Origin: Pyropia yezoensis
Lineage: Eukaryota > Rhodophyta > Bangiophyceae > Bangiales > Bangiaceae
Assembly (NCBI GenBank): GCA_009829735.1
Contig: CM020620.1
Coordinates: forward strand, 4,952,299-5,016,298
Direction of reading: 5' to 3'
Length of the DNA: 64,000 nucleotides
Part shown: in pieces, positions 189-45,670 of the stretch
Position numbering within the stretch: position 1 is the first letter of the stretch
Layout: every line of letters starts with the position of its first letter
Notes under the pieces: model-generated
Seen by the model: the letters and a program-made list of their open reading frames with translations, nothing else
Told to the model about the DNA's origin: nothing
Databases searched by the model: none
Program-made: the position numbers and the translations under genes

Positions 189-192
189 TATT

Positions 193-209: not shown

Positions 210-400
210 ATGATTGGAGTGTTTGAGAAGAGACATTTGGGAGCAGCGGTTGGGTTGTTCCTGTTCTGTCTTTTTCTGTGGTTTGGGAATTATTTGCACC
301 CGTTCACGGGAATCCCATTCCTGGCTCTCCAACCCCTCTCTTGTGGTCGGGCGATCTTTGGACACGCAGGCAACTGGACTGTGGCTGTCAAGAGACCAAC

Positions 401-2161: not shown

Positions 2162-2289
2162 GGCAGGCGCTCTCCCCAAGTGTCTTCCCGAATATCCGAC
2201 GGCAGGGTACTTCTACCTGTTCTCCCCTTGCGTGCCGGGAGAAAGGACGGCAGTTACCCGCTCAACCGGTAGCCGCCTGGACACCCTGT

Positions 2290-5200
2290 TTGTTCAAGGG
2301 GACATTGCTCGTCCTGCGTAAAGAAAACCTCAAGATTAATGCTCGTATGCGTGTGGGGGATAGTCTCCCCCAAGCTGTTACGCCGGTGGTTGACACGGGA
2401 GCCGGACCAAGCGTCATCACTGAGAACCTGTTACCTCCGGGCTGGCGTCGACATGCCTGGAGAGCGCCTACCCGGACCCATATCGTCGACGCTTCGGGTC
2501 AAACCCTACGACCGCTTGGCCGTCTTCCTGTCGCCATCTATGTCAACAATGAACCAATGCTTTTTCCCTTTCTAGTAGTCAAGACCCTATCAGTCCCCCT
2601 CATCCTAGGCTGGGACTTCCAGAAGCAGCATGTCAAGAGCATCCTACCCGGAGAAGGGAAGGTCCAGTTCAACCATGGGTTTGTGTCACCGGTATTGGAA
2701 CATCTGGACGCCAAGGTTGGTGCAGCCAAGAGCAAGAGGGAACGCATCCCACCCTCTACCTTGACTGTCTTCAAACCGGTGCTCCTACCTCCTCGCTCGG
2801 AGACCAAGGTTCAAGTAACGACCCGGATTGCAGGTCAATGCCTGATCTACGGACGTAAGGAATTTCTGGCGAAACACCGGTTATACTTGGCCCACGGACA
2901 TCACAAGAAGGTAGAAAGGCACACCCCGTTCTCGGTGCTAATCGTCAACGTGAGCCGGAAGCCAATAACCCTCGCCAAGGGCACCCGAGTTGGTACAGCA
3001 GAGCCTTACCGGGGATCCGCCCGTGCTATGAGCAAGGAAGACCTCCTGAACCTGCAACAAGAACTGGCATCCAACTTGACGGCCTTAGACGTACCTCCGA
3101 AGCAAGAGCAGGCTGGCAGCGCTACTCCGAAACCCGAACAAGCACCACCCGGGATGCCGAAGGTCAAGCAAGAAAATGTCCCTCCCGACTTGAAGGAGGC
3201 ACTGGAGAAGCTTCTCCAGGAATATCGGCACCTGTGGTCGGGAGAGCTGGGCAAGATGGACGCCACTCTACACCGGATTCAACTCAAGCCGGAAGCTAAG
3301 CCAGTACACATGCAACCATATCGGGCCGGACCTCATCGCCGGGATGAGATTGAGAAGCAGGTTAACAAGATGCTCAAGATGGATGTTATCGAGCCGTTTG
3401 ATGGCGAGTGGGCTTTCCCAGTGGTAGTCGTCCCGAAACCTGGCGGTCACTTCCGTTTCTGCGTTGACTACCGGCGCCTGAACGAGATGACAGTCAAGGA
3501 CGTATACCCGATACCCCGGATGGATTATTGCCTCGACTTTCTTGGTGATGCCACCCTCTTCTCGACGCTGGATTGTAATGCCGGTTACTGGCAGATCCCT
3601 CTGGCTGACGAGGACAAGTACAAGACCACCTTCACGTGCCACCTGGGACTATTTCGGTGCAAGCGTCTTCCTTTTGGTCTCACCAATGCTCCGGCGACCT
3701 TCCAAAGAGCCATCGACATCATCCTGTCCGGGCTAAGGTGGAGAACATGTTTGGTCTACCTGGACGACATTATCGTTTTCTGCAAGACCCCAGCGGAACA
3801 CCTGGAGCACCTTCGGGAGGTCCTGGCCCTCCTGTCCAAGGCTGGAGTTACCCTCAAGGCCGAGAAGTGCCACCTGTTTGAGACTGAGGTGGAGTATCTG
3901 GGGCATGTGCTGAGTCCGAGGGAGCTCCGAGTCAATGAGAAGAACATCAAGGCCCTCCGGCAAGCACGGCAACCCAAAACCCAGACGGAACTCAAGAGCT
4001 TCCTCGGTATGTGCAACGTCTATCGCCGGTTCGTACGGGACTATGCTCTGATTGCCCGGCCACTGACCAAGCTGACCAGCAAGAAGCTTCCCGCACAACT
4101 CCCGGTGTTCGACGAGAAGCAGACCGCGGCCTTCGAAGAGCTCAAGAAGCGCCTGACCACCACTCCAGTACTGGCGTTACCCAAGCGGGAGGGCCAGTTT
4201 GTTCTGGAGACGGATGCCTGTGGCGTCCAGGTGGGGTGCTCACTACTCCAGCAGCAACCTGATGGGCACTTTCTCCCGATAGGCTACTACAGTCGCGTCT
4301 TGACTCCAGCTGAGGAGAACTATTCCACGACCGAGCGCGAGTGCTTGGCAGTCGTCTGGGCTTGCTTCCTGTTACGGCCATATCTTGAAGGACAAGAGTT
4401 CCTCATCCGGACGGATCACGCCAGTCTAAGGTGGCTGCTATGCATGGACAGCAGTCAAGGAAGGGTCGCCCGGTGGCGCCTACGCCTTTCGGAGTTCAAG
4501 TACAAGGTGTGCACCAGAGCAGGGAGGGAGCACCACTGCGCTGACACCATGTCCCGGCTGGAGACTCCTGCAGCCGATACCGGTCCTATCCCGGAGGAGA
4601 TACCTTGCTTCATCCTCCCGAATGTCGGACGTGGCTGGCACGCTCCCCTGTATGAGACACCTGAAGCTCATCAACCGGTGACCATTCACCGGATGCTGGA
4701 GGCACAACTGACGGATCCTCAATGCTTGGAGCTTCGCCACCAAATGGACCTGAACCGGAACAATCGTTTCTCCGAGTCTACGGACGGACTCCTAGTGCGG
4801 GTGTCACCCTTCGATGGGGCCACTCAAGTCTACGTACCCCGGGGCCTACGAGCTGACATCCTACGCCTGGAGCACTCGTCTCCCCAGGCCGGACATCCTG
4901 GTATCAATCGGATGTATGCTTCCATGAGACGACACTATTACTGGGAAACCATGGCCAGTGACGTCCATAAGTACCTGGAGGCTTGTGTTTCGTGTGCAAG
5001 GAACCGGTTGTCCCAGAGGAAGAAGACTTCTAAGCTACGCCTATTCCCTGCGGCGGAGCCCTTTGCAAGCTTAAGCATGGACATCCTGGGGCCCCGACCT
5101 GAAACATCCAGTGGCAACATATACCTGCTCATCATTTGTGACCGGTTCTCCAAGTTCACTCGAGCAATCCCGCTGAGGACCATCACGGCTCTGGATGTCA

Positions 5201-6249
5201 CGTCAGCTTTCTGCGAGTACTGGATAGCTGCCTACGGCCCTCCAGACTCCGTCTTAACCGACAACGGTCCCCAGTTTGCATCCCTGTTCTTCCAAGGAGT
5301 CTGTGACCTGATGCGCATCAAGAACTTGTACACTACGACGTACCACCCTCAAACGAACGGCCAGGTGGAACGATTCAACCGGACCCTAGTAGACATGCTA
5401 CGGCACTACGTGGAGGAGCACCAAGAAGACTAGGACGAGCTCCTGGCTGTCCTCACTCTAGCCTACAACTCCCGAGTTCACCGGACAACGGGAGTCGCTC
5501 CACTCGACTTTGTCACCCCAAGGCGGCTGACCAACTTCTCCCTGGAAAGAATACCAGATGGTCTCCAGCCTGCACTGAAGTCAGGTCCCAAGGCAAAGGA
5601 TGAGTTCCTGGAACAACTGAAGCTCCTGCTCCCAAGAGTCAAGGAGTCAATCTCGAAGACCCAGGAGCGATACAAGCGGGGCTATGACGAGGGCGTTCGG
5701 GAAAAGAACAAGGACCTGGGTGGTGGCGACTGGGTTTTTGTGGACAACCATAGCAAGACCCGGGGGAAGCTGGACTCGAAGACGGATGGACCTTATGAGA
5801 TCCTGAATACGGACGGTTGGACCTTTCTTCAAGACGTGGATGGCTCCCCGTACCGCGTGAGCAGCGACCATGTCACCCGAGCTCCACCGCCAAGCCAACG
5901 GGATTTGACCCGGCACAAGCGGGCCGCAGTACCCTGGCTATCCCAAGAAGAAGGTCGGGAATATGTCTACGTCAAGTTTGTGGACCATGCCTGGAGAGAC
6001 GGACGCCTGTACCTGCGAGTACGCTGGTTCGGTTTTAACCCGGCAGATGATACCTGGGAACCCTCAAACCGGCTACCCATCGCGGATGTCTGTGCCTACA
6101 CGCGACGGAACGGGATAGAGGGCACTCCAGTGGCCAGAGCCGGCAAGATTCTGGAGTCGGACTCGGAGGAGGACCAAGAGGATGGGGCCAACCTAGACCC
6201 TCGGGACGAGCCGAGTTCATCCGCAACAGATGCGGAACAAGAGGATTGA
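2290..6249 (+). pseudogene. pol: Element A pol region: protease, reverse transcriptase, RNase H, integrase, chromodomain
   Basis: Domains in order: an aspartic protease with a DTGA core near 2390; reverse transcriptase from about 3290 to 3960 with a YLDD box near 3760; RNase H near 4190-4560; integrase with an HHCC-type zinc site and DDE core from about 4860 onward; and a chromodomain near 5950-6130. This is the Ty3/gypsy chromovirus order. The region is broken in about one place, so it is listed as a fossil. The chromodomain is expected to guide integration to marked chromatin, as is known for chromoviruses. Confidence 0.9.
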
Positions 6250-6394
6250 GAAGAAGGGAACGGGTATATCAAGGAGAACACGCAATACAAGCATGGAACA
6301 ATCAAGGAAAACAAGCACCCGCTCGGGCAACCCTTCTCTCCGCCTCTTCCCTCCTCGCTTCTCCCAAGACCCTCACCCTCCTTGCCTCCAACTA

Positions 6395-8513
6395 CTACTC
6401 CCGGCGCGGACGCTGAGCCGCGGGAGTGTCCTCCAGCGCTGCCTCCGCGGCACGACGGGAACCGGAGGAAGACGGGATGACGTAGTGCGGTGGACGCGGT
6501 GCATCCCGGTATGACGCCATCGGAGTAGTACCAGTAGTTGCCGGGTGCTGCCGCTCATCCAGACATGCCCGTCGGCGCCCCAGGAAGCCAGTGAAGGTTT
6601 CTGACCACTGCTGGGCCAAACCATGCCGCGTCAAGGTCGCCAGAAGTTCGCCAACCACCGGGCTGTTCGACATCTGGCCGCTGTCCGTGCAAGCAAACAC
6701 CCGGTCAACCACGTTGTTCAAGACGCTGGCGTAAGTACCCAGCACCAGGGAGGACCCAACGCCTTCAACCTGCACCGGAAGACGACCCAGCTGGTCTTCA
6801 ATCATACCGACGTCGTACTGGTCGCATGTCGGACCACCTTGGATCAGTTACCAGTCATGCACCCGGAAGCGGGTAAGGCGCAGAGTCGGCGCCGGAATCA
6901 CGAACCGCCCCGAGGATGACACCACCGGACGGTCCACAACGGCCCCCGAAACCGGAGTACCCAACTCCAGCGGAGGCACAGCGCCGCCGGCGTTGGAAGA
7001 AGGCGTCCGAGGCGGAGCGGCCGGAAAGGTAGGCGACCGTACGGTCACCCCCAGACTCACCACAGACAGGCGCGGTGCCGGAGGAGCTTGAAGTACCGGC
7101 ACAGCCGGAACAGGGCGTGAACGCGCCGGCGACGGTTCAGGCGAGGCCACTGGGGCGACAGGTGCAACAGGAGGAAGCGGAGCCGCCGCAGACGCCTGAC
7201 CGACCGCCGCGGCCCATCCCGACTCCTGCACCGGCGGCGCAACTGGCAGAAGATCAAGGGCGGCCGGGGCAGGAAAGCTACCTAGCTGCGGCCACGCCGG
7301 AAGCGGTGTCGCCAGCTGCACCTTGGCCGGAGAAGACTGGTAGACCACCTGCGCCCGAACCGAAGCCATCCCGACGCGGGCGGTTCTGGTCGGCAATCGC
7401 GTTCAAGAAGTTCCGGTCATGCACCGGGACCAGACGCCGGAAGTCAATCATCGCCTGGAAGAGCCCCTTGTACTCTTCGTCCTGGCTGCACAGGAAGTCG
7501 ACGGTCAACTTGTCGACAATCCAGACCATCAGGAGGTCAGGGAGAAACCAAAGCCGGTTGGACACCAAGACCTCGTGAAGCCAGTGGTTGGCCGCCAAGA
7601 CTGTCATCTCGGACGTGTACATCATGTACGGGATCGAGTGGAAGAAGCCTTTGATCGACGCCTGAGTCAAGGCGTCCAAGAAGTACCAGGTGAAGGGGAT
7701 GCTGGAAGGAGCAAACCCGACCGGGATCTCGACTTCCTGCTGCTGCGGGATGACCTTGGGGTAGTACGCCGCCCGGTTAGCCTTATCCAGCTTCCAGAAC
7801 TCCTGATGGTTGCAGCTCACGAGGAAGTCACGCTGACGGCCGCGTCGCTCGCCTTGCTCCCGTGCCGGTGACAACTTGGAGTACTTCCGGGTCAGGAAAG
7901 GCGGCTCCAGAGCGACCATGCTCGGACGGGGGTCGCAGTTCAGGCTCCCCGACCCCTTGAGCGCCTCGTCCTAGACCTTGAGCGCCCGGTGGACGTACCC
8001 TTCCTCCTCCGGCCACCGGAGAACGGACGCGGACACGCGACGCTCGGTCAAGGGCAGTTCCAGCACCAGCGCGAAGGGGAGATCCTCCAGACGAGCAACC
8101 CAAGAGGAACCCGAGAAGCTCTGGGAGCGGTCTGGTGCCAGGCGCATCTGGTCCGCCGTGCGAAGACGAGCCTTATCCATCTCTGTCAAGACCCCGCGCT
8201 GGAGTTCCTTGCGCCAGAGGTCCCAGCAATCCTGCTGGCACTGGGCCGCGCGGGCGTTGCCGACCACCGTGGAGTAACGCCGGGCCGCCAGAGGGTCCTG
8301 CCCAAGAAGCATCTCCAGGAGACCCACCGGGGGGGTCTCGACCGGGTGCATCACAGAAGCCGGGGGAGCCCGATCCGTCCCCGCCGTGGCGACCGGCGCC
8401 GACATCGACACCCGAGGAACCGGAGGCAGGAGAGGGGCGCGACTACCCGAGTTCTCCTCCGCAACACTCGCCGCCGGAACCACGGGCCCAGCTTGGATCT
8501 CGGAACTGGACAT
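6395..8513 (-). pseudogene. Antisense accessory reading frame of element A (broken copy)
   Basis: Long stretches of protein-like frame run on the - strand between the chromodomain and the 3' LTR, opposite to gag-pol. The first ATG (MSSSEIQAG) is at 8513, 185 bases from the 3' LTR. Several blocks match the antisense protein of element B in the same order: a WRKE..RG block near 8200, EEGYVHR near 7990, HQEF near 7800, VEIPVG near 7725, LPDLL near 7530, and a TLTRHGL block near 6630. The frame is broken in a few places. No known domain is recognised, and there is no signal peptide or clear membrane segment. An antisense transcript starting in the 3' LTR would read it, which is inference. Confidence 0.7.
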
Positions 8514-8682
8514 GACGTCCAGACTCCGGGGGAACGCGAGGGCCAAGGTGAAGGAGAGAAGGGGGGCAGAGAACCGGAGCAGGTGATCGTGACCAGGGTG
8601 AAGACGCTCGACCCCGGCACCGGTGTGGACGTGCTCGAGGCTGTGCACGGTGGCACCTGGTTCGGCCCGAGGACGTGCCGGA

Positions 8683-8697
8683 CTAGAGAGGGAGCTA
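8683..8697 (+). promoter_or_regulatory. Polypurine tract of element A
   Basis: The purine-rich AGAGAGGGAG directly precedes the 3' LTR start, the normal place for plus-strand priming. Confidence 0.65.
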
Positions 8698-9268
8698 TGT
8701 AGCATCCCTGGCCCCGACTTGGCGCCGACCCGGGACTACAACCCGAGGGCACGAGGTGCCAGAACACGCCCGCCGTGTGGTGATGGTTGGCGGCCGTGGC
8801 CCGTGCCCGGCACTGGGATGCGGTGGACTACGCTATCCACACGTGAGAGAGGGATTGCTGATGGGTTTTTGCATACTTGTGAGGGACTTGATTTGAGAGA
8901 ATTTGAGTGTGAGATTAGTGAGTGGGAATAGAATTAGTAGTGATAGTGGCCCCCGACCTGACGAGGTTAGACTCGGGTCGGGGCCACTCGGGGTTATGGG
9001 GGGGCTACCTGGCCAACGTGCCGAGGCTCCCCCAGATGCACGTTAAGAGGGACAGCGAGGCGCCCTTGGCCCGCGCCCTCAGGAAAAAGACAACTGCGCG
9101 TTTGCTTTCCTCTTCCCCGTGTGCACTACCCTGCGTATCTGTTTGCTCTGCGAGCAGGCACGTGAGGCAACAGGCATACCATTCTCGTAGTTCCCCTTTC
9201 TATGTTACCTGTCCCTTTCCCCCGAGGGATATAGACACGTGTCTGAGAGGACCGAGTTTTATACCACA
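8698..9268 (+). repeat. 3' LTR of element A (571 bp)
   Basis: It starts TGTAGCATCC and ends TACCACA (TG...CA). Its end repeats the first 188 bases of the window, and its whole length matches the solo LTR at 30418-30987 in reverse orientation. Confidence 0.95.
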
Positions 9269-9299
9269 CCCCCCATCCCCCCGCTCCTCCCACCCCCTG

Positions 9300-19467: not shown

Positions 19468-20113
19468 TGTAGCGTAATGGAACCCAGGTTCCCGGAACCA
19501 CAAACCACAAACACACACATAGAGACCACAATCCGGATTCCAGGAAGGAACAGGTAAGAGCTCTTGCTGATCCACTCGCCCGCCACGGTACGAGGCAAAG
19601 GCAAACAGGACAGAAGTCCGAGGGACAAGGAACCCAAAGCATTGTTGATTTTACAAGATGGCCCCGGGGAGAACCCCGGAGCACCCCTCAAGAACCTCCC
19701 CCCCTGGCCCCTCCAGGGGCCCAGAACGAGGCCCCCAGAGGGCGCCCCCAGCGGGCCAAGTGCCAGCAAGGCACCGGCCGCTCACCGGGCCAACACACGA
19801 AAAGCAAGCGAAATCCCCCCACACACAAATGTCAATCCCCAAAAAAAACCCAGTGGGAAAAAGGGGAAAGACACGAAATCACGCAAGGAAAACAAATGCG
19901 AAAAATCAAACAAATAACCCGAAGGTCAGTATGCCCCAACCCGGCAAGTCCTCCGCTCCGGAGGGACCAATCAGGGCACCAGGCGTGTCGCCACTGCCCC
20001 GGGCCACCGACACAGGGATCCTAAGCCAGCGCGTGGTTCCACGTAACGCTGCCAGCCGAGTCCCAAGTCAGCCTCCCGGGGTCCCAACGGTACCTGAGGG
20101 CCACAACGCCACA
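19468..20113 (-). repeat. 3' LTR of element B (646 bp)
   Basis: It is the near-identical partner of 28954-29599. Read on the - strand it starts TGTGGC and ends CTACA. Confidence 0.97.
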
Positions 20114-20130
20114 TGGCCCCCTCACTAGGG
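20114..20130 (-). promoter_or_regulatory. Polypurine tract region of element B
   Basis: On the - strand a GTGAGGGGGCCA run directly precedes the 3' LTR, the expected site of plus-strand priming. Confidence 0.55.
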
Positions 20131-20684
20131 CCGAGCGTCCCGCCGGCCAACAGGGAAACCGGGGAGAGGGACTGGAAAGGGTCCGACAGGGTTACACCAG
20201 GGTCACAACGAACGGGACGTGGGGCCAGTGTCTGCAAACAGGGTCCCCCCCGACAAGTGTCTCGAGGCAGAGGGTCCAGGGAAGACTGACCAGGGCGGTA
20301 CGGGAGAGACCGAGGGCCACGCACACGGTAACTAGGGGGGTGTGGCGCAGCCCGCACCGGCCGCCCGCCTGCATTCCTCCTCCCCTCGCCCTCCCCGTGT
20401 GGCGCTCGGCCCGTGGGGTGGGTGAGAAAGCGTAGGGATGCGGACGGGGGCTGGCGGCACGTGGGCGCACGCTGGGTTCCGTCGGGGTGGGGGCCCAGGG
20501 ATAAGAGGGCCCTCACTGGCTCCCTCGTTCCCCGCGACCGGGACCCCAACGCATCATCTTCCCCGCTACGCTTCCCCGTGGGCTCCTCAATCGTTCCCTC
20601 TACCTGTTCCCCTTCCCAACGTTTCCACGCACCCGTTTCCCTTGGTACCCCACCTTCCCACACCGTGTCCCGTTACACCGTCCC

Positions 20685-22433
20685 ATGGATCCCGGCCGCG
20701 CCGCGACGAGCGCGTCGGCTGGCAGGGGCTCGACGGTACCTGGGGCCCAAGGCGTTCCCATCGTTCAAGGCGCAGCGGGTCAAGGGGCTCCCGGCGGTCA
20801 AGGCGTACCGGTCGCGGGCTCAGGTGGGGACTACATGGAACAAGAGGAACGTGGTGCGGGTCAAGCGTACGTCACGGTCCATGGCACGGTACCCGAGGAC
20901 TTTGGTCCCGAGACGGTCACTGCTTGGCGCCGGGAAGAGGCCCGCGGTTGGGTCACCGGTACCCTGGCCCATAAGGTCCGTCGAGTCGTGGACGGGTCCT
21001 GTCCCGGGAACGCATTTCGGAAGCAGATGACCGCGATGGTCCAAGCGCGGATCCCGGTTAAGGCCGATCGGTCCCTGTCGATAACGGTGGTCCGGCACGC
21101 GGGAGAAGTTGGGTACGTGGAGCGGTTCAAGAGCATCCGGGACGAGGTCACCAACGGGACCCTGCCTGCGGCCCCAGGTCCCGACTACATCGTGCTCCCG
21201 TCTTCCTACTTGGACCCTACTTCCTTCAAGCAGTCCCATGGGGACCTTGTGATCAGTCGGCTCCATCGGGACAAGAATGGGATCCTGGTCTGCTGGCACC
21301 AGCAAGAGTTCCCGAGTTGCCCGGCTATTCTCCGTGGGCTCCACTACCTCCGGGTACCCCACTCGTTCGGTCACGTTGAGGTTCCTTTTGGGGCCCTGGT
21401 GGAACTGCCCCCGGTCCAGTGCTACTTCGGGGACCTCCTTCGTGCCTCGGACCCCTTTGCCTGGTTCGTGTTCCGGACCGAGTGGGCCACGAACTGTGCC
21501 CTTTATACCCTGGAGCGGGCCCGTGGTTCCGGTGAGATGTGTCTCCTTCCTCGTCTCCTTCGGACCTGGATCGACCCTGTCGGGGTCCCTGATATCTGCA
21601 AGGGTCCCGGTGGCGTGGACGAGGGAGCGGCGCGGGACCTCAAGGCACTCATGGTTCTTAGCGACCGGGTGGTCGGGGCCCCTGGGCTCCGTTCACGTTT
21701 GGGTCAGGCGGCTTCCAACCGCAAGGACCGTGCTTCCTACGTCTTGGTACGGTTCGAGACCCGGGACGGGACCTGGGCAGCGCTCGTGGACGAGCACCTG
21801 GCTCCCTTGGACCTTCCTTACTCGACGGACATCTTGGACGCGTGGGAGTTTGTCGGGCCCAAAGACGGGAATGTGGGCCAGTCGGACGAGATTGTGCCTG
21901 GAAGTGGGTCCGGTGGTCCTGGTGCCCCTGGTGCCCCTGGTGCCCCTGGTGCCCGGTCGTCGGGCTCCCTTGTTCAACGTCACCCTGCGCTGGGAAGCCA
22001 TACCGTCTTCGTGGCCAACTTGTTGGCCCATTGCGAGGTACCTGATGAGGAACTTGGGGACCTTGAGGGCAACCTGGCTACCTCAACCGTTCCGGGGCTC
22101 CGTAGCTTCTTTGGCGGGTCCGCGGACGTCTTGGCCCATGCTCACGTGGGGCCCTTGCTCTCGGCTTCCCTCCATACCACAGTCAACATTGGGTCCCGTG
22201 TAGCTGAATGGACCCGGGTCCAGGCGGGTTCCACGACGCCGGACTACAAGGGCCTGTTGGCGATCGTGGACCGTAATGGTATCCGTGGGGACCTGGGGTC
22301 AGAGTTGGCCACGGACGAGGAGGAGGCCCGTAAGAGTCGGCATGGGGTTCGTGAGGGTTCCCGGGTCCGAGGTCGGGACGATATGGACCAAGACACTGAC
22401 CCTCGTGCCGAGAGACGGGCCCGTTACCAGTGA
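20685..22433 (+). CDS. Antisense accessory protein of element B (582 aa, unknown function)
   Basis: An uninterrupted frame runs from ATG 20685 to TGA 22433, antisense to gag-pol, between the 3' LTR and the end of pol. Residues 20-48 and 405-425 are collagen-like Gly/Pro/Ala linkers. Residues 80-350 and 440-540 are globular in composition. The tail (545-582) is strongly charged with Arg clusters that could be a nuclear signal. No signal peptide, membrane segment or known domain is seen. Blocks shared with the antisense frame of element A: WRREEARG 81-88, EVGYVER 141-147, HQQEF 205-209, VEVPFG 231-236, CYFGDLLRAS 246-255, LLPRLL 287-292, AIVDRNGI 526-533. That order conservation in two diverged elements argues for a real protein. 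Possible roles are regulation of the element, as for antisense genes of some retroviruses, or counter-silencing; both are inference. Confidence 0.8.
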   Translation: MDPGRAATSASAGRGSTVPGAQGVPIVQGAAGQGAPGGQGVPVAGSGGDYMEQEERGAGQAYVTVHGTVPEDFGPETVTAWRREEARGWVTGTLAHKVRRVVDGSCPGNAFRKQMTAMVQARIPVKADRSLSITVVRHAGEVGYVERFKSIRDEVTNGTLPAAPGPDYIVLPSSYLDPTSFKQSHGDLVISRLHRDKNGILVCWHQQEFPSCPAILRGLHYLRVPHSFGHVEVPFGALVELPPVQCYFGDLLRASDPFAWFVFRTEWATNCALYTLERARGSGEMCLLPRLLRTWIDPVGVPDICKGPGGVDEGAARDLKALMVLSDRVVGAPGLRSRLGQAASNRKDRASYVLVRFETRDGTWAALVDEHLAPLDLPYSTDILDAWEFVGPKDGNVGQSDEIVPGSGSGGPGAPGAPGAPGARSSGSLVQRHPALGSHTVFVANLLAHCEVPDEELGDLEGNLATSTVPGLRSFFGGSADVLAHAHVGPLLSASLHTTVNIGSRVAEWTRVQAGSTTPDYKGLLAIVDRNGIRGDLGSELATDEEEARKSRHGVREGSRVRGRDDMDQDTDPRAERRARYQ

Positions 22434-22710
22434 GTCACACAGAGGGGAGGGACCCGAGGGACCATGGGTTGTTCTTGCATATGATGTTGATCCAAGGAGT
22501 CATAAAGTCTCTTTGTTTGTCAGCTCCCTTGGGACCCCTTCTTCATTGTAAACCATAGGAACCTCCTTCCGACTTAGCCGCATAGCTGGTTCAAAGGGAC
22601 CCATACCAGCCCAGACTCGGAAATGGGGAACTAAAGGGAACGGGGGGGGAGACGGGGGAGTTCATATCCAAGGGGAACGAAGTAAATCTCCATTCCAAAA
22701 AACCATTATC

Positions 22711-22716
22711 AATAAA
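22711..22716 (+). terminator. AATAAA polyadenylation signal candidate for the antisense gene
   Basis: AATAAA lies 278 bases after the stop of the antisense frame and before the end of pol on the other strand. It is on the right strand to end an antisense transcript. Confidence 0.45.
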
Positions 22717-22885
22717 ACCCCTCCCGTGGGTTAGATGTCTTCCCCACCTACCCGAGTTGAACCCCTGACCTCTTTGTTGCCCCCTCCCGATGACTTTCCC
22801 TTACTTCGTTCCATTGACGGACCATCATGCCTGCCCTTGTGCATCCCTTTCAGGGTCAGTAGCGGGGCCACAGATCCGCACCCGG

Positions 22886-25800
22886 TTAAAGGTTCCAGGG
22901 CCACACAGCATAGATAGCCTTAAAGGGTTCCAGTAGTGCCACGGCCTCTTCCTCCCGCAGTGGGGGCTCGGTACCAACACGTTCACAGTACTGAACAACC
23001 TTAGCCCTGTCGAACTTATGGCGCGGTACCCATGTGTCCTCGGACTCGGCGTACCCCCACCAGCGGACCAGGCGCCATAGGTTCCCATCACTGTCCCGGT
23101 CGTGGCCCACAAAACGTTCCCAGACAAAAGGGGTGCCTGAGTCTTCGTAGTCCATAGGTACAACCGGGTCTTGTGGCCCGTGTAAACGGGACGTGCAGTC
23201 AGTGTTTCCAGCAGGCGTGGGTGCCCGGGCCACATGGTCACTGCTTACCCTGTCACGGATCCCCTCGACCAGAACCGTGAATGTGTGCCCGTCCCGGTCC
23301 ACGATACGATAGGGACCCTTGACCTTCTGGTCCAACTTCTGCCGGCTATCATCATTGGTATCCACGTAGACCCAGTCCCCGATACGTAGGGCCTCGTTGA
23401 CCGGAGTGACCCGCTTGTCGCACCCTCTCTTGTACCGTTTCTGTGCCAGGTCCAGGTTCTTACGGACCGTGAAGGCCAAGTTCCTTAGATGGGCCCGTCT
23501 CGCCTCTCGGACCTGTCGCGCGGTACCAGTGAACTCCTTAGGGTACGGGGAACCAGAAAGCTTGTCCAGGGCAAAGGTACGGACCCGGCCAGGGATCACG
23601 AAGTCAAGCGGAGCCACACCGGTACACTGTTGGGGCCTCGTGTTATAGGCAACCGTGAGCACGGAAACCAACTCGTCCCAATGGTCCTGGTGGTCCTCAA
23701 CGTACGTGCGGAGCTGGGCCACTATGGTACGATTAAACCGTTCTACTTGTCCTTGGGTCTGGGGATGGTACGTGGTGGAGGTGACATGCTTGATCCCAAG
23801 GAGCCCGCAAACGCCACGGAAGTATGTGGACGCTAACTGGGGCCAATTGTCCGTTAGTAGGGTCTCCGGGGGACCATAGGAAGCCACCCACGTATCCAGA
23901 AAAGCCGAGGCCACCACTGCCGCGTCTTGGCTGCCAAGGGGAACCACTCGGGTCAGCTTGGTAAACCGGTCCACAATAACAAGAAGGTACCGGTTCCTGC
24001 TGACGGTCCAGGGTAAGGGGCACAAGAGGTCAAGGCACACGTCCTTGAAGGGCTCCGTTGCAGGGAACAGTTTGAGCGGGTTGGTCCGCCGTCTCCCTTG
24101 GACCCTGCCCTTGGAAGACGAGGTACAGTTGGAAACAAAGGCGTGCACATCTGCCACCATAGACTCCCAGTAAAATACCCGCCTCATAGAGGTGTCCATC
24201 TTGTTCATGCCTGGGTGCGCTGCGTGTCCCGGTTCATTTTCCAAGCTCAGGACCTCTTGTTGTTGTGCCTTGGGGACCACGATCTGGACCGCTCGGTCAA
24301 GAGGAGCCAATCGTACCAGTAACCCTTCCGGCGTTTCCCCGTACCTTGAGTTCACGTTCTGGTCCATCTCTTTCCGTAGCTCCTGGCAACGCTGGTCCTG
24401 ACCTTGGGCCTTGAGGATCCTGTCCACTGTCAGAGGCGGGTACCGTGTGCCTGTCTTGAAGTTTGGCCGGGTCCAACCAGTGACAAAGTTAGCCAAGGTC
24501 AACAGCGAGGGTATCTCGTCAGGTATAGGGCCCCTGGCGTGTCCCGTGGTATCCAAGCGTGACATAAAGTCCGCTGCGTGATGATGTTGCCCGGGACGGG
24601 ACTCAACGGTATACTGGAACTCTGCCAGCCGGAGGCGCCAGCGGGCCAAACGTTCATGGGCCCCGTCAATATATAACATCCACTTCAGTGCCGTATGGTC
24701 CGTTCGTACCACAAAGCGTGTCCCTTCAAGGTACGGTCGTAACAGAAACTGAGCCCAAAAAACGGCAAGACACTCACGTTCCGTGGTACTGTAGTTACAC
24801 TCAGCCGGAGTCAGCACACGGCTCCAGTACCCCACGGGCTTGTAGGCCCCGTCCCCTTGGTCCTGTAGCAAAACGCACCCAATCTGGGTAGCGCTAGCAT
24901 CCGTATCCACGATGTACTGACCCGTGCGTTTCGGAAGAGCCAGAATGGGAGTATGGGTCAGACGGTACTTGAGCTCCTCAAAAGCGTCCGTCTGGGCCGG
25001 GGTAAGCGGTGGTAACGGGTCTGGGACCTTGGTACTGGTCATGGCCAACAGGGGTCGGGCTACCTTGGCGTAGTCCTTGACAAAGCGCCGGTACACCTTG
25101 CACATCCCTACGAGACTGCGAAGGTCCTTCTTGGTCCTTGGGGTCTTAGCTTCCCGGAGCCCGACCAGGTTCTTCTCGTTCACACGGAGTTGACCCTTAC
25201 CAACAATGTGCCCGAGGTACTCAACCTCATCCTGGAACAAAAAGCACTTGGTAGCCTTGAGGGAAACACCGGCCCTAGCGAGTAGCTCAAAGATCTCTTT
25301 CAGATGGGCCAGGTGTTCCTTAGGGTCCTTGAAGAACCCGATAATGTCATTCAGGTACACAAGGCACGTCTTCCACTTAACCCCGGACAGGATCATATCA
25401 ATGGCCCTCTGGAACGTAGCCGGGGCGTTGTTAAGACCAAATGGGAGCCGGATGTATCTGAAGGTTCCTTCGTGACAAGTAAACGCAGTCTTGTCTTGGT
25501 CCTCAGGAGCCACAGGGATCTGCCAGTAACCACCGTTGGCGTCCAGCATGAAAAACACGGTAGCCTCTCCCAGGAAGTCGATACAATCGTCCATGCGCAG
25601 TAACGGGTAGGTATCCTTATCCGTGACCTCGTTCAAGCGCCGGTAATCCACACAGAACCTAGGGGTACCATCGGTCTTCGGGACCAACACAACCGGGAAG
25701 GACCACTCAGCCTGGGACGGTTCAATAACCCCGAGCCGGGTCTGCTTTTCCACTTGATCCATGATAAGGTCCCGATGATGGAGCCCGGTACGGTACGGTT

Positions 25801-27157
25801 GGGACCGAATGGGTTTGGCCTTTTCCCCGAGGGTAATCCGGTGAGGGGTCACATCAATGCGTCCCAGTTGCCCGTCCCATAGGTCCTTCTAACGGTCCAA
25901 AAGTTCGCGTACAGCCTGGGGTAGCTCAGGCGGGATTAATTCATACGCGACCTTGGGCATCTGGACCGGGGTTCCTTCAGGCTTCTTGTCCGTCGTGTCC
26001 GGCTCAGGAACCGTGGTTCCGGCGGGTCCCTTGGGAGTCGCGTCCCCCGGTGCCGACGCTTGGCTCAACGGGTTCCCTTGCTCTGGCCCCAGGGTGACAA
26101 GTGGTGCGGCCCCCTCACTAGGGGCCGACAAGTAATCCGGAGGGACCTCGAGCACAAGACCATCGTACGGTATGGCCACGCCAACGGCAAAGTTCTTGGG
26201 CAGGTTGACAGCCCGGTCCGAGATGTTCATAACATGGATCCGAAAGTCCCGTCGGGTCCGTATCGTAGCCAGTGCGTTGTGTAAACGGAGCCCCTTCTTA
26301 GCCATCTTATGGGGCCTCTCGTACAATAAACCTTTCCCATTGGTACCGCACTTGACAAACACAGCTTGTAGGGACCGGGGAGCCAAAGTCACGCCCTTGG
26401 AAAGTTACAGAGCTGAGGGATCTTGACATACAGGGTTGCCCTTGACAGGAAAAGCGCTCTGGGCCTTGCCTTCCCAGGTCCGCTTGGCGTTGGACAGGAA
26501 CTCAAGGTTCCAAAGGACCGACTCGGTCCCAGGGTAGATGGCCTTGACATGTTCCTTTTGGAAGTCCATCCCAATGATCAATGGGACAGAAAGGGCCCTG
26601 ACGACAAGGAACTCAAACTCCATCGGCTTCCCGTTGACAATGAACGATAGTTCCAGGACTCCCCGGGCCTTGAGCAGTTGCCCGGAAGCGTCACAAACAT
26701 GGGTAGACTTAGGAGCCCTAGAATCCAATCGTTGCCATCCACAGGGTAAGATGTCCTCGCGTACAACACTGGGTCCCGCACCTGTGTCCAAAATGGCCGT
26801 CGTTTCCTCAGGGTCCTCTTGGTCCAAACGTACAAATGCATTCAAAGCGAAGTTCCTCTTACGCAGGACAAGCAAGGTGCCCTTGAACCCACATGGCTTC
26901 TTCATTCCCAATCGACGTCGGAGCCCAGACTTGGACCGCCGTGCCAGAGAGGGTAAACAGGAACAAGGGGTGGGCAAAACAATAGGAGACGCAGAACGAA
27001 CAGGTACAATGGGGCCCTTCAAGATCTTCGAGAACCCCAGCTTGGTTGCAAACGAGCAGGTACTGTCCCGACGATGGGGAGGGGACCTCTTGGATCCACC
27101 CCCCGTTACTCTTTTCCCGAGGGTCCCGGCTCCTGGGAACCGACGGTCACATGGCAC
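22886..27157 (-). pseudogene. pol: Element B pol region: protease, reverse transcriptase, RNase H, integrase, chromodomain
   Basis: Reading leftward on the - strand: protease with a DTGA core near 26800; a spacer; reverse transcriptase from about 25850 to 25200; RNase H near 24950-24550; integrase zinc site and DDE core from about 24240 to 23700; and a chromodomain near 23170-22960 (GNLWRLVRWWGY...EDTWVP). The 5' edge overlaps the end of gag by about 50 bases in another frame, which fits the programmed gag-to-pol frameshift known in Ty3-like elements. The region is broken in about two places, so it is listed as a fossil. Confidence 0.92.
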
Positions 27158-28812
27158 ACTTGGTCCGCCTCGTCATCTGACAAGTTGATGCCTTCACACA
27201 GAGCCTGGACCATGGCAACACGTATCTGGCGATGGAACTGACGGTCCGCGTTGGGCTTGACCTCGGTACTCTGGCTCCGGCCCCGAGTAGCCGCAAGGAA
27301 CGAGTCCCGGGCCTGGATAACCGCTTTCCGTTGGGCCTCGGATAACATGGAACATTGATGGGCCATGTGGCCCGGTTCCCAGCAAAGGTAACAACGGTAC
27401 GGGCGCCGGCTATCCATGGTACGTACCCCCACTATCTGGGGCGCGGATCCCTTGAACCCAAACACTTGGCCCGACCCGTTCTTCTCAGTTTCCTTGTCAA
27501 GGGGGCCCTTAAGGATCGTCGAGGGGCCCATAGGATTGACTGCCATTGACGGTGACGGGTCTGGGGAGGGCTTAGCCCGAAAATCAGTAGGCCTGCGGGC
27601 GGAAACAGAGGGACCAGCCTTGCACGAAGAGGACCCTTGGGCCATCTTAATAACGTCCGTGGCTGCCTTGTACTTGCCCGCAGTAAAAGTAACCAACTGC
27701 TGGTACGTATGGTCGGGAACATTGTAGACAAACGCGTCAGTGCGCAGGTACTCAGGGAGCCCTTGGATCAGCTGCTGTTTCATGGTGCCCTCTGTATGGA
27801 TATTCCCACAAAGTTCCGTTAGGCCCCGGAGACGGACCGCGAAGGCCTCGATGCCCACGTCTGGTTCCTTAGCGGCCCGACTGAACTTGTCCTGAGCCAG
27901 GGCAAGTGCATGGGGCTCTTCGTACGTCTCTAGGAACCAGTTAACGGCCTCTGGGTAGCTTGTGATCGGGGAGCCACCAGACGCGCTGGTGGAATCCGGA
28001 AGGGCCCGTGTGTACCGTAGTTCCGCGTCACCGGAGAGGAAATGCGGGATCGCATAAAGGGCCATGCCCTCGGAGACCGCGTTGTCGTTACAAGCCTTTA
28101 CCAGTCTGCGGAGCCACGTGAACACTTTCAGGGCCTCCTTACCAGAAAAACTTGGGTACCCAGCAAAAGAGTGTTTCATGTTACGCGCGACCCGTCCCAT
28201 CTTACGAGCCTCACGTGTCCCATAGGTGGCGTTCTTGTTCCTCAGCCGGTACGTACGGTAATCTAAGACCCGAGCAAAGCGATCATCTGAGCACTTGATA
28301 ACCTGGGGCTCGGTCTGTGGGTACTCAGGGGTCTCAAGGTCCTCCTCATCCAGGACAGAAGAAAACGTGGTACCCGAGGAAGAGGACGTACAGGAACCAC
28401 TGGAATGGTGACGACGCCGACGACGGCGGGAACGGGAACGATTGGAACGACTTGTATCATGGGACCCACCCTGGCCAGCAGGACTCTGGCTCAGGGCCTG
28501 GGATACAGTAGCCAAAATCTCATCTCGAAACGTTTCCAGAGTAGTAACAATGTCTTGGGACCCAGCAACAGGAGCCAAAGGTGGAACTCGGGTCGCTGTC
28601 TCAGAACCCGTGTCCCGACGTAAATCCCGACCCATAGTAGCCCGAATCCCACCCGGGGGCTCTGTCCCCCGACGCGGAATCCCTGTCTGCCCGCCTCCGC
28701 CACGGCCCAACGGACACGTGGGACCGCCAGGGCCGCGACCAGCGGGAGTAACCATAAAAACGTCCGACGGCGCACCACGGCCCCGACCTCCCGAGGGAAC
28801 AGGGTCCGTCAT
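27106..28812 (-). CDS. gag: Element B gag (capsid/nucleocapsid)
   Basis: This is an open frame of about 568 codons from the ATG at 28812 (MTDPVPSGG). It has a low-complexity Gly/Arg/Ser-rich N-terminus with an Arg/His cluster around residue 140, a capsid-like middle collinear with element A gag (shared VKACNDN), and a clear CCHC zinc knuckle (CYLCWEPGHMAHQC) near residue 475. An upstream in-frame start is possible, but this ATG is the first followed by the conserved composition. Confidence 0.9.
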   Translation of the reverse strand: MTDPVPSGGRGRGAPSDVFMVTPAGRGPGGPTCPLGRGGGGQTGIPRRGTEPPGGIRATMGRDLRRDTGSETATRVPPLAPVAGSQDIVTTLETFRDEILATVSQALSQSPAGQGGSHDTSRSNRSRSRRRRRRHHSSGSCTSSSSGTTFSSVLDEEDLETPEYPQTEPQVIKCSDDRFARVLDYRTYRLRNKNATYGTREARKMGRVARNMKHSFAGYPSFSGKEALKVFTWLRRLVKACNDNAVSEGMALYAIPHFLSGDAELRYTRALPDSTSASGGSPITSYPEAVNWFLETYEEPHALALAQDKFSRAAKEPDVGIEAFAVRLRGLTELCGNIHTEGTMKQQLIQGLPEYLRTDAFVYNVPDHTYQQLVTFTAGKYKAATDVIKMAQGSSSCKAGPSVSARRPTDFRAKPSPDPSPSMAVNPMGPSTILKGPLDKETEKNGSGQVFGFKGSAPQIVGVRTMDSRRPYRCYLCWEPGHMAHQCSMLSEAQRKAVIQARDSFLAATRGRSQSTEVKPNADRQFHRQIRVAMVQALCEGINLSDDEADQVCHVTVGSQEPGPSGKE

Positions 28813-28932
28813 GTTGGCCGTACGGTACTCGACCTGAACCAAACGATCTCGTTACCAGAAACAGGAACCAAGGAACCAAACGCCACAGAGAAAAGAAAGG
28901 GCTGTCCCGATACGGGAGAGAAGTATAGCCCC

Positions 28933-28949
28933 CCCCTGCTGCTCCACCA
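28933..28949 (-). promoter_or_regulatory. Primer-binding site of element B
   Basis: On the - strand TGGTGGAGCAGCAGGGG begins 4 bases after the 5' LTR. It is identical to the site of element A. Confidence 0.8.
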
Positions 28950-28953
28950 TAAA

Positions 28954-29599
28954 TGTAGCGTAATGGAACCCAGGTTCCCGGAACCACAAACCACATACAC
29001 ACACATAGAGACCACAGTCCGGAGTCCAGGAAGGAACAGGTAAGAGCTCTTGCTGATCCACTCGCCCGCCACGGTACGAGGCAAAGGCAAACAGGACAGA
29101 AGTCCGAGGGACAAGGAACCCAAAGCACTGTTGATTTTACAAGATGGCCCCGGGGAGAACCCCGGAGCACCCCTCAAGAACCTCCCCCCCTGGCCCCTCC
29201 AGGGGCCCAGAACGAGGCCCCCAGAGGGCGCCCCCAGCGGGCCAAGTGCCAGCAAGGCACCGGCCGCTCACCGGGCCAACACACGAAAAGCAAGCGAAAT
29301 CCCCCCACACACAAATGTCAATCCCCAAAAAAAACCCAGTGGGAAAAAGGGGAAAGACACGAAATCACGCAAGGAAAACAAATGCGAAAAATCAAACAAA
29401 TAACCCGAAGGTCAGTATGCCCCAACCCGGCAAGTCCTCCGCTCCGGAGGGACCAATCAGGGCACCAGGCGTGTCGCCACTGCCCCGGGCCACCGACACA
29501 GGGATCCTAAGCCAGCGCGTGGTTCCACGTAACGCTGCCAGCCGAGTCCCAAGTCAGCCTCCCGGGGTCCCAACGGTACCTGAGGGCCACAACGCCACA
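28954..29599 (-). repeat. 5' LTR of element B (646 bp)
   Basis: Same length as 19468-20113 and about 99% identical; followed on the right by the CCACC duplication. Confidence 0.97.
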
Positions 29600-30089: not shown

Positions 30090-30417
30090 CGCCTAAGCGA
30101 CGATATTTACCTTTACTGCAGCCGCCTTCACCGCCACCATCACCAGGTCCAGGTCCCCCACAACACAGTTCTGGCGACAGGGTGTGTAACGGAGTGAACG
30201 ACAGGAATAAGCTTTTGCACTCTCCTCCGCAACGGCCGCTGCTGTCAGGTCCACTCCCCGACTGCCCCCACGGCCACGAAGGCGTGGAACGTGGCAGGAA
30301 AGGATCGCTCCGTCGCACCCCGCCTCTCTCCTCGCCACAACGCCCACTTTGCCGCCAGAGCTGTTGCTGCCGCCGCTCTCGCGGCGGTACATCACGGTAT
30401 GCGCGGCCAGTGGCTCG
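29605..30417. repeat. Flanking DNA with degenerate tandem repeats and (CCGCCA)n
   Basis: Around 29740-29850 a unit of roughly 36-40 bases (GAGTG...AGAC.CACACTGG) occurs about three times in diverged form. 30030-30095 is a CCGCCA microsatellite that makes poly-Gly frames on the other strand. No gene recognised. Confidence 0.6.
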
Positions 30418-30987
30418 TGTGGTATAACACTCGATCCTATCAGACACGTGTCAGTATCCCTCGGGGGAAAGGGACAGGTAACACAGAAAGGGGAACTACG
30501 AGAGTGGTATGCCTGTTGCCTCACGTGCCTGCTCGCAGAGCAAACAGATACGCACGGTAGTGCACACGGGGAAGAGGAAAGCAAACGCGCAGTTGTCTTT
30601 TTCCGGAGGGCGCGGGCCAAGGGCGCCTCGCTGTCCCTCTTCACGTGCATCTGGGGGAGCCTCGGCACGTTGGCCAGGTAGCCCCCCCATACCCCCGAGT
30701 GGCCCCGACCCAAGTCTAACCTCGTCAGGTCGGGGGCCACTATCACTATTAATTCTACTCCCACTCACTAATCTCACTCTTAAAATCTCTCAAATCAAGT
30801 CCCTCACAAATATGAAAAACCCATCAGAGATCCCTCTCCCACATGTGGATAGCGTAGTCCACCGCATCCCAGTGCCGGGCACGGGCCACGGCCGCCAACC
30901 ATCACCACACGGCGGACGTGTTCTGGCACCTGGTGCCCTCTGGTCGTCATCCCGGGTCGGCGCCAAGCTGGGGCCAGGGATGCTGCA
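30418..30987 (-). repeat. Solo LTR of family A (570 bp)
   Basis: Full-length match to the element A LTR, reverse orientation, starting TGCAGCATCC at 30987 and ending TACCACA at 30418 on the - strand. It is flanked by GCTCG (30413-30417) and GCTTG (30988-30992), a target duplication with one change. No internal sequence is attached, so it is a recombination product, older than element A. Confidence 0.92.
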
Positions 30988-37397: not shown

Positions 37398-37767
37398 ACA
37401 ACTTTCGATTGTCGACGGTGCATATCACACTCGACGCAGGCCCCGTCGCGTCGGCACAATGCATAGTGGAATGCCCAGTATTACGCCGAAGCACGCTTTT
37501 TGCCGACACATTGTGCCGACATTTGCAACTTGCAATCTGGCCAGGGACGGCACGGCCTCTTCCAGCTCGCTAAGACTAAGAAGGGTCGCGCGAACCCCAT
37601 GTATTGACAGCACATCGCATCTGACCCTCGGCCCAGAGCACACGCCCCACAGGCGACTTTCCATCAGCAGAACCTTGCTCACCATTAGCCTCATGCAGGC
37701 ATAGATGAAAAAGATGAGGGGCGGGTGCTTTTCTGAGCACCCGCGTCGTAGCGGCCAGGTCACTCTG
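37398..37767. other. No gene; scattered GTGCCGA-type motifs
   Basis: GTGCCGAC in both orientations at about 37455-37515, without a clear period. Left flank of the family C solo LTR. Confidence 0.4.
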
Positions 37768-38641
37768 TGTAAGGATATGCCCCCCAAATCCCCAATACTC
37801 TAGCTTCGGGGATAAGGACTGGGGCCTCTCCTTCCCTGTCCTTCTCAGCCAACTCCTTCCAAGACGCATCAACTCCCTGGTAATCTGGATATGCCGCGGT
37901 GTCCGGCCGAGATTCTACGGGTCGCGGACGGTCAGCACGAGAGCCGCGGATCGGCTACCCGTTAGTACCCTGACTCATCCCCGGACGGATATTTTCTCTC
38001 CGCGGATCAGAGGACTAACGGACCACAGGACAAGCCACATCTCTGACTCATCGGCCAGCCGGAACAATCTCCCCACGAGCCAATGGGAACGGCAAGATTT
38101 GCTGACCCACGGGACATTTTCGACCCGAAGACTGGCGTCTGGCTTACACGCCTCTGCGGCCTATCGGGCCGCCCGGCGTGTGAGGCCAGCGGCGCGGCGC
38201 TACGAGCGCCGCACGCCGCCCCCGCCCCCGCTTGGGGCTGTCTGGTGGGGCGCCTTGGGGCGCACACACCCACCTTGACTTGTTCTGAGAGCCTATGCCT
38301 TGTTTTGAGCCCATTGGTGCCGCCCCCCCGGCGGCACGGGCAATCGCATGCTTTGGGGCACCCTGGGTGCCCCCCCCGGGGGTGTATAATGCGTGAGTGC
38401 GGGCGCCACCCGGGGAGACCTCGGGGGAAACAACGAACACAGACACAACGACCTCCTTTACCCTCGAACCCCTCGACCCCCTCGACCCTCACCGACGTTA
38501 CGCCCATCTTCTTCCCCACCCCCATCACCGTCACCCCGCCCGTCACCTTCCCCGCGCCCCGGAGCTTCATTGGCTTACGCGGGCAGCTGAAACCGTTCAC
38601 CAGTAGGTTGAGGGCTGCCCGGGTGGGGGCGGTGCCTCACA
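37768..38641 (+). repeat. Solo LTR of family C (874 bp)
   Basis: Same length as both LTRs of element C and nearly identical to them, in the opposite orientation. It starts TGTAAGGATATG and ends GCCTCACA. It is flanked by exact copies of CTCTG (37763-37767 and 38642-38646). A TATA-like GTATAATG lies at about 38387. Confidence 0.95.
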
Positions 38642-38646
38642 CTCTG

Positions 38647-39172: not shown

Positions 39173-39177
39173 AGGCG
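39173..39177. repeat. Target-site duplication of element C, left copy (AGGCG)
   Basis: Exact match to 46545-46549. Confidence 0.9.
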
Positions 39178-40051
39178 TGTGAGGCACCACCCACACCCGG
39201 GCAGCCCTCAACCTACTGGTGAACGGTGTCAGATGCCCGCGTAAGCCAATGAGGCTGCGGGGCGCGGGGAAGGTGACGGGCGGGGTGACGGTGATGGGGG
39301 TGGGGAAGAAGATGGGCGTAACGTCGGTGAGGGTCGAGGGGGTCGAGGGGTTCGAGGGTAAAGGAGGTCGTTGTGTCTGTGTTCGTTGTTTCCCCCGAGG
39401 TCTCCCCGGGTGGCGCCCGCACTCACGCATTATATACCCCCGGGGGGGGCACCCAGGGTGCCCCAAAGCATGCGATTGCCCGTGCCGCCGGGGGGGCGGC
39501 ACCAATGGGCTCAAAACAAGGCATAGGCTCTCAGAACAAGTCAAGGTGGGTGTGTGCGCCCCAAGGCGCCCCACCAGACAGCCCCAAGCGGGGGCGGGGG
39601 CGGCGTGCGGCGCTCGTAGCGCCGCGCCGCTGGCCTCACACGCCGGGCGGCCCGATAGGCCGCAGAGGCGTGTAAGCCAGACGCCAGTCTTCGGGTCGAA
39701 AATGTCCCGTGGGTCAGCAAATCTTGCCGTTCCCATTGGCTCGTGGGGAGATTGTTCCGGCTGGCCGATGAGTCAGAGATGTGGCTTGTCCTGTGGTCCG
39801 TTAGTCCTCTGATCCGCGGAGAGAAAATATCCGTCCGGGGATGAGTCAGGGTACTAACGGGTAGCCGATCCGCGGCTCTCGTGCTGACCGTCCGCGACAC
39901 GTAGAATCTCGGCCGGACACCGCGGCATCTCCAGATTACCAGGGAGTTGATGCGTCTTGGAAGGAGTTGGCTGAGAAGGACAGGGAAGGAGAGGCCCCAG
40001 TCCTTATCCCCGAAGCTAGAGTATTGGGGATTTAGGGGGCATATCCTTACA
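39178..40051 (-). repeat. 3' LTR of element C (874 bp)
   Basis: Partner of 45671-46544, with the same ends (TGTAAGG...CTCACA on the - strand). Confidence 0.96.
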
Positions 40052-40071
40052 CCTCCCCCCCCTTAGGACGC
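40052..40071 (-). promoter_or_regulatory. Polypurine tract of element C
   Basis: AAGGGGGGGAGG on the - strand abuts the 3' LTR. Confidence 0.7.
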
Positions 40072-43570: not shown

Positions 43571-43578
43571 TCGCTGCT

Positions 43579-45668: not shown

Positions 45669-45670
45669 CA

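Follow-up and report, generated by a model that had tools for sequence, protein, structure and literature searches.

A conserved antisense gene between pol and the 3′ long terminal repeat of chromovirus-type retrotransposons in the red alga Pyropia yezoensis

Two long terminal repeat (LTR) retrotransposons, here called elements A and B, lie in a stretch of 64,000 nucleotides from the genome of the red alga Pyropia yezoensis (assembly GCA_009829735.1, contig CM020620.1, positions 4,952,299 to 5,016,298 of the forward strand; hereafter the window, numbered from its first base), and both carry a long frame on the strand opposite to gag and pol, between the end of pol and the 3′ LTR. The frame is uninterrupted in element B, which is organized as follows (coordinates, strand, feature).

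19468-29599, minus: element B, a Ty3/gypsy chromovirus-type LTR retrotransposon of 10,132 bp with both LTRs, recognized by the LTR pair, TG..CA ends, a flanking repeat and Pfam matches to reverse transcriptase (RT), RNase H and integrase.
28954-29599, minus: 5′ LTR, 646 bp, 99.4% identical to 19468-20113.
27106-28842, minus: gag-like open reading frame (ORF) of 578 aa with a weak zinc knuckle (PF00098, expect value (E) 0.014, below the cut-off).
26405-27157, minus: ORF with a weak aspartic protease match (PF00077, E 8.6e-4, 20.0 bits vs a cut-off of 20.7).
22886-25852, minus: pol, with RT, RNase H and integrase (Pfam) and a weak chromodomain (E 0.0024, below the cut-off in the window copy).
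22434-22885: spacer from the pol end to the antisense stop, poorly kept between B subfamilies.
20685-22433, plus: antisense ORF of 582 aa, uninterrupted from ATG to stop.
20114-20684: spacer from the 3′ LTR to the antisense ATG, with a polypurine-tract-like end; putative site of the antisense promoter.
19468-20113, minus: 3′ LTR, 646 bp, the other member of the LTR pair.

The 5-bp repeat GGTGG is present on both flanks of element B, and a purine-rich TGAGGGGGCCA adjoins the LTR in the spacer 20114-20684. The longest frames in the sense direction within 20114-22885 span 230, 184 and 112 codons, compared with the 582 codons of the antisense frame. Element A is arranged in the same way on the opposite strand.

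1-9268, plus: element A, chromovirus-type, whose 5′ LTR begins 383 bases upstream of the window (LTR pair of 571 bp, 98.9% identity).
278-2161, plus: gag-like ORF of 627 aa, 36% identical to the gag-like ORF of B and without a Pfam match itself.
2290-5433, plus: pol, with weak protease (20.1 bits vs a cut-off of 20.7), RT, RNase H and integrase (Pfam).
5740-6249, plus: C-terminal part of pol with a weak chromodomain (PF00385, E 6.1e-5, 23.3 bits vs 25.1).
6395-8705, minus: antisense gene, open in three of four relatives; the window copy is fragmented into four ORFs that overlap or adjoin one another.
8698-9268, plus: 3′ LTR, 571 bp, from the LTR pair.
30417-30987, minus: solo LTR of the A family, matching 8698-9269 at 94-95% identity along 572 bases, with no other A-like sequence found adjoining.

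A stop and frame changes split the window copy of the A gene into ORFs 7971-8705, 7278-7919, 6848-7396 and 6395-6805, but in three of four fetched relatives (loci L042, L043 and L045; the fourth, L044, is not open) the gene is open for 769-770 codons from its first ATG. With A open in these relatives and B open in the window, the placement of an antisense frame between pol and the 3′ LTR of both elements, first made in a preliminary description of the window, holds. The first ATG of the A gene (8705) sits just within the LTR edge (LTR start 8698), and translation could equally well begin at a later ATG (MSSSE...); at 8698-8705, the end of the A LTR read antisense itself provides an ATG in frame with the gene. 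A primer-binding-site-like TGGTGGAGCAGCAGG is common to A (189-215, plus) and B (28923-28953, minus), just inside the 5′ LTR. In the carrier elements RT, RNase H and integrase follow one another as in Ty3/gypsy chromoviruses; the chromodomain PF00385 exceeds its cut-off of 25.1 bits at locus L047 (25.5 bits), falls below it in window A (E 6e-5) and B (E 0.0024), and is not listed for the pol piece of L042. Judged by domain order and by this chromodomain at the C-terminus of integrase, the carriers are of Ty3/gypsy chromovirus type.

The antisense proteins of A and B are related to each other. Comparison of the B protein with A by tblastn gave 25% identity over 331 columns (E 6e-12), and alignment of profiles built from 25 B-type and three A-type rows gave a probability of 98.1, E 1.4e-13 and 25% identity over 305 columns, both E values being those of a single comparison. 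The local score of B was 158 against an open A copy, where 300 shuffles averaged 42.6 (standard deviation 6.4, maximum 71; z 18), and 145 against the window A copy with its stop kept as X (shuffle mean 38.3, z 23, also 300 shuffles). The argument that chance frames would not keep a series of shared blocks in order, against which the preliminary description had set scores no better than those of shuffled sequences, is borne out by these values. Five of the blocks lie in the same order inside the profile alignment (B/A: WRREEARGW/WRKELQRG, EVGYVER/EEGYVHR, HQQEF/NHQEF, VEVPFG/VEIPVG and LLPRLLRTWI/FLPDLLMVWI), and the last, RNGI/RHGL, is outside it and was matched by eye in two sequences only. 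The blocks had originally been set against the clear divergence of the sense proteins; that divergence is real, but the emphasis has to be corrected, the antisense protein being the least conserved of the three products (25% identity between A and B, against 36% for gag and 58% for pol over 722 residues).

Relatives were sought in protein databases and in the genome itself. Among 7,994 scored candidates the B profile recovered 10 relatives; an A profile recovered one and a mixed profile two, one of them already found, the reach of the mixed search being limited because it missed B-type proteins found with the B profile. Among the relatives are an entry in EukProt and two hypothetical proteins of P. 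vietnamensis: MMPV_009748, and MMPV_001850, whose identity to the window protein is 31% over 80%. Scanning IMG/VR with a single relative returned seven pattern matches, none of which was confirmed. The genome assembly searched comprises 107.5 Mb in 11 contigs, three of them large (43.6, 34.3 and 29.4 Mb); all match counts are lower bounds, and some of the 76 B-type matches are pieces of one copy. The B protein has at least 76 matches, window copy included, of which 24 lack stops and count as full length, beginning at residue 42 or before and reaching at least residue 544, and 52 are partial or contain stops, while A-derived queries yielded at least 150 matches each, 113 of the 150 for one query lying in frames of at least 750 codons. 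By identity to the window protein, which represents subfamily B1, the B-type copies include subfamilies B2 (62-65%), B3 (45-48%) and B4 (47-50%); with a P. vietnamensis relative as query (at least 91 genome matches), the three best matches form a further, degenerate lineage, B5 (L046-L048, 34-39%). At least six lineages, B1-B5 and A, carry the antisense gene in this genome. The original proposal, a conserved antisense gene in two diverged chromoviruses, is sustained by position, orientation, purifying selection and the many open copies, and with these lineages and the P. vietnamensis relatives the finding is wider than was claimed; the outcome named as opposing it, that no copies elsewhere keep the frame, is not what the 24 B-type and 113 A-type frames show.

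The place and orientation of the gene are nearly invariant among the loci with flanks. Adjoining pol is on the opposite strand in 36 of 40 loci (31 of 34 B-type, all three A-type with enough flank and two of three B5-type) and on the same strand in none, and a B-type LTR is present on the other side in 31 of the 34 B-type loci, all but L014, L031 and L032; these counts leave out L035-L041, which have no flanks, and L044, which has almost none. The three B-type loci without an adjoining opposite-strand pol match are L013, in which pol is deleted and gag is on the opposite strand; L019, with other repeat sequence in the place of pol and a further-off pol match (30%), again on the opposite strand; and L033, where a 16-residue pol end remains on the opposite strand, followed by another repeat. 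In the B5-type L048 a pol match is found only on the LTR side, with gag opposite. Absence of pol from B3 elements was considered and given up: in L033 and L019 other repeat sequence occupies its place. Extra pol matches occur beyond the LTR in L012, on the same strand as the antisense gene, and in L022. L013 (284-4770) is a deletion derivative of B1 consisting of an LTR, the antisense gene with one stop, the start of gag and a second LTR, with pol and most of gag gone; such a derivative is a possible non-autonomous form.

Selection on the gene was estimated by the Nei-Gojobori method from nonsynonymous (dN) and synonymous (dS) divergence among 12 chosen B-type sequences (66 pairs). Between B1 and B2, dN is 0.24-0.28, dS 1.03-1.17 and dN/dS 0.21-0.25; the ratio is 0.31-0.34 for B1-B3, 0.39-0.41 for B1-B4, 0.26-0.29 for B2-B3, 0.32-0.33 for B2-B4 and 0.29-0.30 for B3-B4, values that are rough because dS is near saturation. 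Three A-type sequences gave 0.20-0.22. In five pairs the antisense frame has no stops, while each of the other five frames has 10-30 stop-containing codon pairs; four of these have dN/dS of 0.98-2.05, and the one that shares third positions with the antisense gene has 0.27-0.57 but 17-29 stop-containing codon pairs. This comparison of antisense and overlapping frames, suggested in the preliminary description, places selection in the antisense frame, the only one without stops. The C-terminus of pol (about 350 codons) has dS of 0.84-0.95 and dN/dS of 0.07-0.09 between B1 and B2; within subfamilies, where changes are few, pol dN/dS is 0.2-2.4. The similar dS and higher dN/dS indicate that the antisense gene has been diverging for about as long as pol in these lineages, its protein changing 3-4 times faster.

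Nucleotide identity, computed in 150-nt bins to four B2 copies and to a single copy each of B3 and B4 (pol not being comparable in B3, where other repeats lie), delimits the same unit. Against the B2 copies, identity is 89-98% in bins that lie entirely or almost entirely within the LTR, 53-81% in the upstream spacer, 55-77% in the antisense gene, 39-53% in the spacer to pol and 76-87% in pol; against the B3 and B4 copies, it is 41-56% in the upstream spacer and 49-71% in the antisense gene. The spacer 22434-22885 stays at 39-55% against B2, B3 and B4, apart from one B4 bin of 65%, which runs across the boundary with the antisense gene. The gene is an island of conservation that aligns across B1-B4, both spacers mostly failing to do so in B3 and B4. 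As a separate matter, the LTRs of B1 and B2 (19468-20113 vs L018-L030) are 92-94% identical, whereas the synonymous divergence of pol is about 0.9, which points either to LTR exchange between subfamilies or to strong or unusual constraint on the LTRs.

The antisense protein comprises a low-complexity, Gly/Pro-rich N-terminus and a conserved core predicted to be mostly helical, followed by a variable Gly/Pro/Ser linker and a second predicted helical block with a conserved charged tail. Its full-length AlphaFold2 model is poor; a model of the cropped core (residues 55-392) has a mean predicted local distance difference test score of 65, with helices and two strands in the better part (crop residues 201-330). 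Pfam (hmmscan, E ≤ 10) contains no match for the window protein; the A and B5 proteins and the second one from P. vietnamensis likewise have none, and among 32 family members there was one sub-threshold match (P0009, E 0.052). The best sequence match in the PDB has E 0.8, Foldseek comparison with PDB and viral models gave no match at E ≤ 0.001, and comparison with VIA gave nothing usable, none of which is proof of a new fold. A duplication of gag was ruled out, the protein having no profile similarity to the gag of its element (hhalign E 0.79, probability 0.1). As far as these Pfam, PDB and Foldseek searches reach, the earlier statement that no known family is recognizable stands, and by the same comparisons the protein constitutes a new family in a known arrangement, that of the antisense ORFs of plant Retand elements.

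The remainder of the window places the elements in a repeat-rich setting, the P. yezoensis genome being described as 48% repeats, mostly LTR retrotransposons (PMC7423979). A third Ty3-type LTR element (39177-46544, minus) has sense ORFs resembling gag (PF03732), RT, RNase H and integrase and LTRs of about 875 bp, an inverted, 99% complementary copy of which lies at 37767-38642. Its interval from the RT ORF to the 3′ LTR (40053-41704) has no antisense frame of 100 codons or more, and provides one control against the notion that every element here has such a frame. The window also has a C2H2 zinc-finger protein gene (50013-51983, plus; PF00096, E 8e-26) and, close to the elements, an Argonaute gene (52453-55221, minus) with Piwi, PAZ, ArgoN, ArgoL1, ArgoL2 and Mid domains all above Pfam cut-offs, indicating that the host has small-RNA machinery. 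The end of the window (57000-64000) has a GC content of 77-84% in 2-kb bins, many simple repeats and overlapping long ORFs, and includes a predicted tRNA-Ser at 58851-58948.

On the evidence of the sequences, the antisense frame is a gene with a fixed place and orientation, under selection at the level of its protein. Our preferred reading, to which we give roughly even chances, is that it is a real protein-coding accessory gene of a Bangiales chromovirus-type lineage, expressed from an antisense transcript and most likely encoding a nuclear regulatory factor. The gene would sit tail-to-tail with pol, and its own transcript would start between the 3′ LTR and the ATG; the protein would help its carrier element by acting on the element's transcription or by countering host silencing, rather than in a structural, enzymatic or envelope role, and an antisense promoter would allow it to be made even when the 5′ LTR promoter for the sense strand is silent. 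The faster change of the protein relative to pol would fit a factor whose partners or targets themselves change quickly. Its anti-silencing version is put forward as a hypothesis, from the antisense arrangement and this fast change, with VANC of the Arabidopsis VANDAL elements, which are DNA transposons, as a functional analogue. VANC is described as an anti-silencing protein that binds noncoding regions forming tandem repeats (PMC10398659). It is set beside the red-algal protein by description, and the likeness would lie only in the proposed role, that of an element-encoded factor against host silencing.

Several observations weigh against this regulatory reading. The antisense transcript, its own promoter and a benefit to the carrier are all deduced from sequence. 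Unlike the targets of VANC, no tandem repeats of that kind are seen in the spacers of the window B element or of L042; a repeat scan of window B detected a 37-base array of a 9-mer inside the antisense gene and 13-mers in the LTRs, and none in the spacers. The isoelectric points of seven proteins are 5.7-6.8, with no consistent basic cluster, which lends no favour to a role in nucleic-acid binding. Within B subfamilies dN/dS is 0.20-0.56, and the near-saturated dS noted above blunts the comparisons between them. The window A copy and 52 of the 76 B-type matches are broken or partial, so that single copies persist without an intact antisense gene; moreover, a frame free of stops does not by itself imply a start codon: in L038 no ATG precedes codon 155 of the open stretch.

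The main rival, which we hold to be distinctly the less probable account but a serious one, is that the protein is a structural or replication cofactor, packaged with or assisting gag and pol in assembly, nuclear import or integration, its location on the other strand being incidental. The mostly helical core of the low-to-middling confidence models would suit such a role, the gene is present in the same elements as pol, and the pol-deleted L013 keeps its LTRs, part of gag and an antisense frame with one stop; set against this are the absence of similarity to gag, Pfam, PDB or viral structure libraries and the expectation that a structural protein with an antisense transcript of its own could be kept in proportion to gag only with difficulty. 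It is improbable that the gene is instead of cellular origin, acquired by an ancestor of these elements and since retained in antisense orientation: transduction can create extra ORFs in other elements (PMC7264820), but no host copy was recognized among the protein relatives, a statement that covers the three extra matches inspected (L046-L048) and for which the context in P. vietnamensis is unread. Very unlikely is an account in which the region matters as RNA, antisense transcription limiting the element through double-stranded RNA or promoter interference and the frame being secondary. A role of this kind has been discussed for antisense transcripts of plant elements (PMC7264820), and an Argonaute gene lies in the same window; yet selection follows codons, third positions changing most and a single frame staying open, and the spacers, expected to share any constraint on RNA, are not kept in B3 and B4. 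An envelope-like or movement-like protein would fit the place between pol and the 3′ LTR, but it is strongly disfavoured by the position of the gene on the opposite rather than the sense strand and by a simple hydropathy scan of seven proteins that found no transmembrane-grade segment (19-residue Kyte-Doolittle maximum 0.98-1.54). A chance open frame spread by recent transposition, conceivable given a GC content of 61-66% around the frame and the many long frames that arise by chance where the window is GC-rich, is refuted by 45-65% protein identity between B subfamilies at dS of at least 1 with no stops, and by the 25% identity that still links A and B.

HBZ of human T-cell leukaemia virus 1 (HTLV-1) and ASP of human immunodeficiency virus 1 (HIV-1) are antisense genes of retroviruses. 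The red-algal frame resembles them in its antisense orientation and its location at the 3′ end of an LTR element, and differs in that no long sense gene overlaps it; the likeness is one of arrangement, and no sequence relation to the retroviral genes described on the antisense strand (PMC10186651) is claimed. Closer in arrangement are the antisense ORFs (aORF-3R) of plant Tat/Retand Ty3 elements, which occupy the interval between pol and the 3′ LTR and include gene23 of Grande, RIRE2, ORF4 of Retand and the TRP28 domain PF04195 (PMC7264820, PMC11963269). Where it treats the Retand lineage, one of these sources reports the TRP28 domain in 97% of clusters, describes the lineage as non-chromovirus and reports it only from flowering plants (PMC11963269); in its passages on antisense extra genes of LTR elements, the other places them in flowering plants and a few other hosts, their origin and function unexplained (PMC7264820). 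The red-algal frame shares with plant aORF-3R its antisense orientation to gag-pol, its interval, many copies, several families and a conserved protein, but its carriers differ from Retand, a non-chromovirus of flowering plants (PMC11963269), in having an integrase with a chromodomain. PF04195 was not listed by hmmscan (E ≤ 10) for any of 32 family members, in a search whose HMMER filters drop most weak matches, and membership in the TRP28 family is rejected. The comparison with plant Tat antisense frames offered in the preliminary description is retained for place and orientation and does not extend to the marker domain. Outside plants, the fungal element Boty has an antisense frame (PMC7264820) that is likened to this one, by description, for its location between pol and the 3′ LTR. 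The open-licence literature in PubMed Central yielded no report of a red-algal antisense frame, and any claim to novelty is limited to that body of work.

In summary, these elements present a second, unrelated-looking protein family at the site of the plant antisense genes, under protein-level selection over several lineages, which makes convergence plausible. A more specific version, that red-algal chromoviruses independently evolved an antisense accessory gene at the Tat site and that it encodes a fast-evolving silencing antagonist whose promoter is active when the LTR is shut, is speculative and in our view unlikely as a whole. The findings also suggest that retroelement genes account for some of the 'hypothetical proteins' in Pyropia genome annotations, and they make the red-algal elements an independent system for asking what antisense extra genes do. 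If the silencing antagonist and its independent origin were true, LTR elements would have arrived more than once at antisense accessory genes as an answer to host silencing.
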